A stretch of 64,000 nt of DNA from Spirulina major PCC 6313 (GTDB lineage Bacteria; Cyanobacteriota; Cyanobacteriia; Cyanobacteriales; Spirulinaceae), in contig NZ_KV878783.1 in NCBI RefSeq assembly GCF_001890765.1, positions 2,316,695 to 2,380,694 on the forward strand, in the 5' to 3' direction. Position 1 is the first letter of the stretch. Each line of letters begins with the position of its first letter. Below, one piece after another: positions 15,631 to 17,720 of this stretch. The notes beneath the pieces are model-generated. The model searched no databases. It was given only the letters and a program-made list of their open reading frames with translations, and was not told where the DNA came from. A program made the position numbers and the translations under genes.

Positions 15631-16345
15631 ATGACTGTTCAATCCAAATTTCAAAATAAAATCTTATTCGTTTTGTTAGCTAGTCTGATTACGCCTGTGG
15701 GAATCATTAGCAGTTATAGTATTGTTTCATCTAGGTCAACAATTCGCACGGTTGTTTACGATGAGATGAAAAGTGATAGCTCTGTGGTGATCGATTTTTA
15801 TATCAAAGAGCTAGAGTCTGATTTAGAATTCCTCAGTCAAGTCCCTCCTATTCAAGGTATTATTCGTGCTAGGGAAAATGAAGGCATTGATCCATTAGAT
15901 CAATCTTCTGAAAGAGTGTGGAAAAATCGATTAGAAGTTATTTTTAGAACATTCTTGAGTTCTAATCCCACCTATTATCAGCTTCGTTATCTTGATGAAA
16001 CCGGTAAAGAGCTAGTGCGAGTGGACTACCGTGATGCTAATCCAGTCGTTATTCCAGAAGCTGAATTACAAGATAAAAGTCAGTCAGATTATTTTCAAGA
16101 CACGATGAGACTGCAACCCGGCGAGATGTATGTGTCTAAGATCAACCTCAACCGGGAACAAAACCAAATTGAAATTCCCTACCGTCCTGTGATTCGCTAT
16201 GCTGTGCCGATTTTTAATGCGGCAGGGCAGCGACGAGGCATTGTGGTGACAAATATTTTGATTCAACAGGGATTTGAACTCAGCCAGACCAATATTCAAA
16301 CGAATCGCGATTTAATTGTTGTTAATCGTGATGGTGACTATTTAC
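15631..16345 (+). pseudogene. Methyl-accepting chemotaxis protein, 5' fragment (interrupted gene)
   Basis: The first 238 codons encode an N-terminal transmembrane helix (about residues 10-32) and most of a periplasmic dCache-type sensor domain. The end reads VVNRDGDYL, where related receptors continue with a HPD..KEWGFE segment. Instead the frame enters a mobile element at 16346 and stops at 16353. The rest of the gene resumes at 16576, after the element. Joining 16345 to 16576 restores one open frame of 619 codons with the sequence [16 protein letters not shown] across the junction, so the insertion is recent and seamless. The truncated product would have no signalling domain. Confidence 0.85.
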
Positions 16346-16575
16346 GAGCGTGATGCGTAAAGCCCCCTGAATTTTATTCGGGGGATATAAGCGAATAACC
16401 GAATTGATTCGGTGGTGATACAATAAAAGCGTTCGCTAGCGCGAAGTAAAATTCCGGGGTGAGCACCTTATGGGCAGGGCGTTGTCCATTGGGCGAGGCA
16501 AGATAAGACGGGCTACGCCTGCAATTGCTGTCTGAACCCAGAATCCCCCGTCATTTATGCGGGGGAGTACGTCAA
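16346..16575 (+). mobile_element. Minimal IS200/IS605 (IS608-type) element without transposase
   Basis: The 230-bp element lies directly after the target tetranucleotide TTAC (16342-16345) and ends with TCAA (16572-16575). Each end has the expected subterminal hairpin. The left stem is at 16363-16384 (CCCCC T GAAT / ATTC GGGGG, bulged T) and the right stem at 16545-16565 (CCCCCG T CAT / ATG CGGGGG, bulged T). AAAG lies directly 5' of the left hairpin and GAAT directly 5' of the right one. These four tetranucleotides are the cleavage and guide sequences known for IS608. No tnpA or tnpB ORF fits, so the copy must be moved in trans by a Y1 transposase. Confidence 0.85.
16420..16575 (+). ncRNA. 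Candidate omegaRNA/reRNA scaffold in the right end of the IS608-type element
   Basis: In IS605-group elements that carry tnpB, the right end is transcribed as the scaffold of a TnpB guide RNA. The scaffold ends at the TCAA boundary, and the guide is read from the flanking DNA. Here the sequence between the two end hairpins is structured (GTTCGC/GCGCGAA-like stem near 16430) and ends in GAATCCCCCG...CGGGGGAGT..GTCAA, the form seen in cyanobacterial tnpB elements. If transcribed, its guide would start at 16576 in the chemoreceptor gene. The 5' boundary is uncertain and transcription is not shown; no TnpB is encoded in the window. Confidence 0.4.
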
Positions 16576-17720
16576 TCCATCCTGATGTTGAAAAAGAATG
16601 GGGGTTTGAGTTGGGTCATTCTGACAATCTCAAGAATGATTATCCCCCTGAGGTTGCTGAGGCGATTCTTACCAATGAGTCGGGATTTATTCAAGCCGGA
16701 ACTCCATATCTGATTTACTACGATCGCGTCACCCCGGATGCGCAACACCCGAATAGTACGTTTATTTTGATATATCAGAGCTTAAGTGCTTCGGTCTTTG
16801 CTCCGGTACGCCGCTTGACCCTTTTAACCCTGGTGAGTGTGCTGGTGACGCTCGGACTGGCTACGCCGATTGTGATGATGGTGTTGCGGCGTTTGCTCCG
16901 CTCGGTGTTGGGGTTAACGGGCACTGTGGCGGGGTTTTCGGGTCAGTTGTTATCGACGCTCGATCAGCAGAGTTCAATCATGAATCAACAGTCGCTGATG
17001 GTGCAACAAACGACCGCCACGATGGAGCAATTGAATCAATCGTCGCAAGAGTCAGTTCAACAGGCAGAGCGGGCGTTAGCTACGGCTCAACAGGCGATCG
17101 CTCGCTTGAACGACGGCACAGCGGCGATGACGCGATCGCTCCATGCCCTAGAGACGCTGAATGAGACGGTCGATGCGATCGCCACGCAAATCCAAGGCCT
17201 GCAAGCCAAGGCGTTACAAATTTCCCAGGTGTCTACGCTGGTGGGCGATCTCGCCGGTCAGACGAATATGTTGGCGTTAAATGCGGCGGTGGAAGCGGTG
17301 CGAGCGGGGGAACAGGGGAAAGGGTTCGCCGTGGTGGCGGCGGAGATTCGGAAACTAGCCGATGCGAGTAAACAATCGGGGGCCACGATTCAAACCCTGG
17401 TTCAGGACATTCAACGGGCTGTGCAGGGCACAGTGAGCGCAACCGCCGACGGCACGCAAACCCTAGCAACAAGCACCACCATTTCCCACGATACGGCGGC
17501 TATTTTTGCAGAGGTCACCCATGCGATTCAGTCGGTGGTGGAGAGTAGTCAACAGATTGCTCAGAATTGCAGTGAGCAGGCTCAGGCTGTGCAGCAGGTG
17601 AGCCAGACCATGACGGTGCTCAATCAAGGGGCGCAAGAGAATGTGCAAGGTATTCGCCAAACCCGTCAAGGGGCGCAGCAACTTAATGATGCTGGAGCGG
17701 ATCTCGAAAAGGTGATTTAG
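16576..17720 (+). pseudogene. Methyl-accepting chemotaxis protein, 3' fragment (interrupted gene)
   Basis: This fragment contains the end of the dCache domain ([15 protein letters not shown]), a second transmembrane helix near [20 protein letters not shown], and a cytoplasmic MCP signalling domain. The conserved hairpin tip is [20 protein letters not shown], then [21 protein letters not shown] domain is not obvious. A start-like ATG at 16557 inside the right hairpin of the inserted element would let a gene caller report it as a separate 387-residue protein. It is better read as the displaced C-terminal part of the gene beginning at 15631. It lacks its own promoter evidence. Confidence 0.85.

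Follow-up and report, generated by a model that had tools for sequence, protein, structure and literature searches.

An insertion of 230 bp that encodes no protein interrupts a chemoreceptor gene of the cyanobacterium Spirulina major PCC 6313, raising the question of how such a sequence moves and whether its right half, which resembles the scaffold of a TnpB guide RNA, could be put to use. Our window is the 64,000-nucleotide stretch at 2316695-2380694 of contig NZ_KV878783.1, from a genome of 5.05 Mb; positions below are those of the window unless the contig is named, and all features lie on its plus strand. The reading that we consider probable is that the insertion is a PATE, an RNA-only element of the IS200/IS605 kind that relies on TnpA in trans to move and whose guide is used by resident TnpB against empty sites.

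IS608-type ends and copies of the element

The element (16346-16575) is preceded by TTAC (16342-16345), its target and presumed TnpB TAM, and ends in the right cleavage site TCAA (16572-16575), both of which are found at all 20 copies in the genome. By the logic of IS608, the left guide tetranucleotide AAAG (16359-16362) would pair with TTAC and stands directly before a left-end hairpin with a bulged T (16363-16384; CCCCC-T-GAA..TTC-GGGGG), and the right guide tetranucleotide GAAT (16541-16544) would pair with TCAA, is invariant in our alignment of right ends, and adjoins a right-end hairpin, P3 (16544-16566), also with a bulged T. P3, recognized from its sequence and from covariation, would be common to the TnpA substrate and the omegaRNA. 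A second left-end hairpin, ACCGAATTGATTCGGT (16398-16413), has counterparts in tnpA-bearing and tnpB elements.

Because the 20 copies are 97-100% identical (mean pairwise identity 98%, five of them identical), the element is not a product of chance; their flanks are unrelated to one another and show no target duplication. These ends, in which the insertion tetranucleotide and the cleavage site are fixed and the guide tetranucleotides adjoin subterminal hairpins, are those of the IS200/IS605 family and IS608-like, so that the IS608-type ends and seamless insertion proposed in the initial annotation are strongly supported, with exact coordinates. Its further statement that the element has no tnpA or tnpB holds; the genome as a whole has one Y1 TnpA and 43 TnpB matches. 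Since no Y1 TnpA is encoded in the 230 bp and one lies elsewhere in the genome, we regard the element as a non-autonomous derivative rather than a complete IS, and it has the short, transposase-free form, IS605-related subterminal palindromes and lack of target duplication by which PATEs are defined (PMC3119063). At 3245800-3245840 of the contig, two right ends joined head to head form a near-perfect palindrome (TTGACTTACTCCCCCGTTTAGAAAACGGGGGAGTAAGTCAA).

The interrupted chemoreceptor gene

Removal of the element joins the flanks into a single frame of 619 aa, a chemoreceptor gene (15631-17720) whose halves on either side of the element carry the dCache sensor and the MCP signalling domain (MCPsignal). 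The joined frame aligns end to end with uninterrupted chemoreceptors of other genera (41% over 633 columns in one example), and the alignment runs straight over the junction, where a homologue reads SEGFYLSHPDSEKEW (YLSHPDSEKEW). The insertion is therefore both seamless and gene-breaking, and the restored frame first read from the letters (DGDYL-L-HPD) is borne out by uninterrupted relatives. Two genomes of the same genus searched with the receptor stretch gave no match. As the receptor frame is otherwise intact, the insertion is probably recent.

TnpA and TnpB elsewhere in the genome

The one Y1 TnpA of the genome (141 aa, without stops) sits in an IS605-type element at 3064978-3066450 of the contig (loci L023, L031 and L040) together with a divergent tnpB from which about 128 bp are missing. 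The left end of this element reads TTAC followed by GAAGGTGAAGCGTAAAGCCCCC, AAAG and GAAT are present, and the spacing from end to hairpin is 17 nt, as in the 230-bp element. About 30 of the 43 TnpB matches lie within elements with matching ends, namely a tnpB-only element of 1.26 kb, present in about 30 copies, that begins with TTAC and GAATGTAAAGCGTAAAGCCCCC, closes with GTAAGTCAA and shares the end anatomy of the 230-bp element. Many of these copies encode a full TnpB of 381 aa that matches the ISDra2 TnpB structure PDB 8bf8 (E 2.5e-47) and the Pfam families TNB and OrfB_IS605, and that keeps GFDFGLK, CFETLNL and NDRDENAA, the motifs expected to hold the RuvC D, E and D.

As the tnpB of the sole tnpA-bearing element carries an internal deletion, movement and nuclease functions reside in different elements, and the genome is arranged in three tiers: a single mover, numerous carriers of the nuclease and 20 RNA-only copies. 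The search for further copies and for tnpA or tnpB elements with the same ends has thus returned both. From the copies and the single TnpA element with matching ends, we infer that the 230-bp element is moved by TnpA in trans. At one site (892337-893931 of the contig), about 200 bp separate a 230-bp copy from an intact tnpB-only copy of the same orientation.

A covarying fold shared with tnpB-linked right ends

Over its last 90 bp, the element shares 78% identity with the right ends of the tnpB elements. When 21 right ends were aligned by MAFFT without structural information (alignment A1), a five-helix fold paired 96.6% of cells and had compensated changes at 20 of 28 pairs, with a covariation score of 0.513 compared with 0.219 after shuffling and at most 0.110 when the helices were slid; RNAalifold, unaided, returned the same fold. 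In window coordinates, the predicted omegaRNA consists of P1 (16470-16476 paired with 16483-16489), which shows covariation, then P4 (16490-16493 with 16537-16540) enclosing the two-part P2 (16497-16502 with 16524-16529, and 16509-16512 with 16518-16521), both found in the aligned right ends and by RNAalifold, and lastly P3. The P1 of tnpB elements overlaps the coding frame at its 3' end, and the P1 of RNA-only elements has other bases with its pairing kept. An extra 5' hairpin, P0 (16431-16437 with 16458-16464), is peculiar to the 230-bp type, is paired in all eight aligned elements and has changed on both sides of its helix among them.

The window copy itself is less orderly, as the last pair of outer P2 is broken (G opposite A), a defect that many copies in the genome also have. 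Since its single-copy folding energy is ordinary (z -1.2), the claim for an RNA is carried by covariation and not by the fold of this copy. An Rfam search of the element region returned no family at E<=1. A model built from the aligned right ends (R1) made 50 strong matches in the genome, essentially the 20 copies and the right ends of tnpB elements, and had matches in 158 of 293 relatives. The proposal that the right half resembles a TnpB omegaRNA scaffold is strongly supported, by a covarying fold held in common with true tnpB right ends and by the -10-like boxes of most RNA-only relatives (see below). Because tnpB is absent in cis, both from the element and from the relatives found by pattern (see below), such an RNA may do the work of an omegaRNA in trans without being tnpB-linked.

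RNA-only relatives across cyanobacteria

Among 72 classified loci of the relatives (which include Anabaena sp. 4-3, Dolichospermum sp. ST_sed8 and Picosynechococcus sp. PCC 7003), drawn from the best R1 matches, 16 had no tnpB nearby. Several tnpB-less loci share with the 230-bp element a mark in P1, GGCAGGGCRTTGTCYRTTGG, and a scan for this pattern, blind to tnpB, in 84,980 genomes found 38 stretches, 35 of them in cyanobacteria of about 16 species, with hosts in Anabaena, Nostoc, Dolichospermum, Sphaerospermopsis, Nodularia, Calothrix, Tolypothrix and others. None of the 35 cyanobacterial stretches has tnpB in cis; a separate tnpB element lies about 3 kb from locus L261, and a diverged fragment of tnpB over 2 kb from L232. 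Matches in Pseudomonas (L228 and L251) were set aside as chance, having no match to the RNA model, and viral contigs scanned for the RNA-only signature gave no match. Judged by this signature, the window element is a member of a widespread RNA-only group, not a lone deletion product.

These elements come as the 230-bp type, also found in Nodularia, Cyanocohniella and another genome (L245, L259, L241, L262 and L149), and as a shorter type that starts with TTAC followed by C[AG]AAAA..TGGGT; a few of the copies show truncation or decay. Among 39 distinct RNA-only sequences, 96.7% of cells were paired, 15 pairs were compensated and covariation was 0.388 compared with 0.201 after shuffling, figures to be read with the fact that this alignment was fitted to the model and so leans towards the fold, whereas the 21-sequence MAFFT alignment was not. 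As P1 is partly fixed by the search pattern, P2 and P3 carry the covariation in this set, and the compensated pairs include those of P2, a helix that TnpA should not need.

Several further loci were observed. A stretch in a Candidatus Poribacteria MAG (PYIZ01000034.1; L255, 5338-5480), far outside cyanobacteria, gave an omegaRNA-like R1 match of 51.6 bits, with no TnpB match within the 8 kb examined. Anabaena phage A-1(L) (OR360731.1, 51673-51740; L286) has, directly before an annotated transposase gene, a left end that shares 88% identity with the left end of the window element, making the cyanophage a possible carrier between hosts. An unannotated, standalone omegaRNA-like locus without a visible left end lies on a mobilizable plasmid of Picosynechococcus sp. 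PCC 7003 (NZ_CP016476.1, 191068-191171; L063/L287). In Anabaena catenula FACHB-362 (L232, 3230-3433), an RNA-only element abuts the right end (GTGTCAA) of another IS200/IS605-like element.

Promoter-like boxes upstream of the RNA

An extended -10-like box, TGATACAAT (16416-16424), lies upstream of P0 in the window copy, and a start near 16431 would place the 5' end of the RNA at P0. A two-hexamer promoter scan of this copy returned no promoter, and no -35 box was seen in it, so the case for a -10 element is drawn from the relatives and not from that scan. Counted with a chosen list of hexamers and among related, hence non-independent, loci, a -10-like hexamer stands at -4 to -12 before the RNA in 25 of the 34 RNA-only loci other than the 230-bp type and in one of 47 tnpB-linked right ends. 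For all RNA-only loci the count is 35 of 46, compared with 3.9 expected by shuffling, though 10 of these should be discounted, being the TAAAAT in the P0 loop of the 230-bp type.

Origin of the RNA-only group

In a tree from all 112 columns, one branch sets 32 signature sequences apart from the rest (support 99/90); once the P1 columns are removed, the data neither establish nor reject a single clade of the 32 (AU p 0.147). It is thus likely that one old RNA-only lineage stands behind the window element, on evidence that comes mostly from P1. Other RNA-only loci (L072/L076, L085, L203, L208 and L217) are placed elsewhere, with five label changes on the tree, indicating that tnpB was probably lost several times. 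The RNA-only loci L217 and L218 of genome G254 have an R1 score equal to that of the right end behind a TnpB gene in the same genome, and so appear to reflect a recent, independent loss of tnpB. These two and L219 (genome G125) make up a separate RNA-only family with the end GGCTCAA.

Resident TnpB and the predicted guide

Close TnpB proteins were found in 20 of 25 genomes with RNA-only elements and were missing from the other five. They occur in 8 of 11 pattern-found genomes and in 39 of 149 relatives generally (one-sided Fisher p 0.003), an enrichment that supports but does not prove dependence because the two groups of genomes differ in taxonomy. All 16 genomes tested had at least one Y1 match, some of them weak.

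By analogy with the ISDra2 reRNA, the predicted guide of the window copy is TCCATCCTGATGTTGA, the first 16 nt of the right flank (16576-16591). Throughout the genome, TTAC followed by this guide is matched with at most two mismatches only at the junction of the element itself, and secondary targets with TTAC at fewer than three mismatches are absent. As the only near match is the element's own junction, homing or retention fits these data and silencing does not.

How the element may move and persist

The mechanism that we propose would begin with the single resident Y1 TnpA, which would cut and join the element ends as single strands, at TTAC and without target duplication. The interior of the element would then comprise nothing but a promoter-like box and the scaffold of a TnpB omegaRNA, from which an RNA would extend at its 3' end into the flank and thereby gain a guide against TTAC plus flank, that is, the empty site. 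The RNA of the window copy would direct TnpB to TTAC-TCCATCCTGATGTTGA in the empty receptor site (target TTACTCCATCCTGATGTTGA). TnpB from the tnpB-only elements would load this RNA in trans and cut the excised empty site or an unoccupied allele, and repair from an occupied copy would restore the element; the occupied site would be spared since the element separates TTAC from the guide match by 230 bp.

Some of these features would be expected even if the element were an ordinary PATE, an IS605-type deletion derivative that jumps with TnpA only and in which the omegaRNA scaffold is a passive remnant. Transposase-free PATEs have been described in Haloquadratum (PMC3119063) and Halanaerobium (PMC7290912), TnpA makes use of the end hairpins, the copies in the S. 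major genome are young enough that little decay is expected, and L217 and L218, scoring like a tnpB-linked copy, have the look of fresh deletion derivatives. That TnpA requires P3 and the end sequences in any case also tempers the proposal of a guide in use. A passive remnant, however, should lose P1, P2 and P4, and the pairing of P1 and P2 has been kept through two-sided changes across many genera (pair 35-70 of P2, for example, goes from GC to AU in 18 rows of the RNA-only alignment), and -10-like boxes are a mark of RNA-only loci rather than tnpB-linked ones. We therefore think it unlikely that the scaffold is a remnant.

Conservation of the fold, and the presence of 20 RNA-only alongside about 30 tnpB copies in one genome, would also suit a decoy, an omegaRNA that occupies TnpB and dampens cleavage by tnpB elements and so is a parasite of the nuclease instead of its user. 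The guide is always the copy's own flank behind the TTAC of the tnpB elements, which fits use better than titration, and we hold a decoy to be very unlikely, though sequence alone cannot separate the two. The initial annotation had also raised gene silencing, and a host-adopted regulatory RNA resembling TldR could be imagined from standalone RNA loci without a visible left end (L063, L183 and L085). A TldR-type guide has a nuclease-dead partner and a distant target; the TnpBs listed here keep their catalytic D, E and D, the sole TTAC-plus-guide match within two mismatches is the element's own junction, and the copies are mobile with guides that differ from one to the next. The silencing claim thus finds no support, and we give such a role scarcely any credence. 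Returning to a guide RNA used by resident TnpB, a broader proposal is that protein-free elements of this kind, each made up of two ends plus a promoter and guide RNA and relying on TnpA to move and on TnpB for RNA-guided homing, form a long-lived lineage that diversified by itself among the genera of cyanobacteria without being re-made by deletion each time; on this our judgement is evenly balanced. No report of a deep cyanobacterial lineage of RNA-only elements is known to us.

Should the RNA be active, a mobile element of about 165-230 bp would be borrowing transposition and RNA-guided retention, as separable functions, from two others, and many unannotated intergenic stretches of cyanobacteria may be guide RNA genes. 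Such elements would offer a natural test of whether TnpB acts in trans, whether an RNA is selected for by retention alone and how it comes to be freed, as a guide, from its nuclease gene.

Comparison with known systems

IS608 of H. pylori, a member of IS200/IS605, inserts seamlessly at TTAC, ends in TCAA and carries the guides AAAG and GAAT beside hairpins with a bulged T. The 230-bp element has the same target, end, guide tetranucleotides, hairpins and seamless insertion; unlike IS608, it has no internal tnpA or tnpB, both of which are located in other elements of the genome. In Geobacillus, Meers et al. in 2023 reportedly described short protein-free elements beside TnpA/TnpB elements, as well as TnpB-dependent retention of transposons, and the arrangement seen here, of short protein-free elements alongside TnpA/TnpB elements, appears to be the same.

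The PATEs of Haloquadratum (PMC3119063) and Halanaerobium (PMC7290912) likewise lack a transposase and target duplication and have IS605-like subterminal palindromes, and the single Halanaerobium PATE has retained 58 nt of tnpB and 160 nt of the right end (PMC7290912). The accounts of these PATEs give no guide-RNA function (PMC3119063; PMC7290912), whereas the elements described here have an omegaRNA fold shown by covariation and a recurrent upstream -10-like box, and their RNA-only forms recur over many genera instead of being deletion products in one genome. The ISDra2 reRNA is about 150 nt long, its last 16 nt or so being flank, and its TAM is the insertion motif (PMC8612924); TnpB trims the 5' side of its own RNA (PMC10278001). 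With this reRNA and other omegaRNAs the element would share the right-end scaffold, a guide from the 3' flank and the identity of TAM and insertion motif, and the length of its scaffold is near the 106 nt of AmaTnpB (PMC8612924; PMC10278001). In ISDra2, the RNA overlaps the tnpB mRNA and is processed from it, whereas the RNA predicted here has no tnpB in cis and apparently has a promoter of its own.
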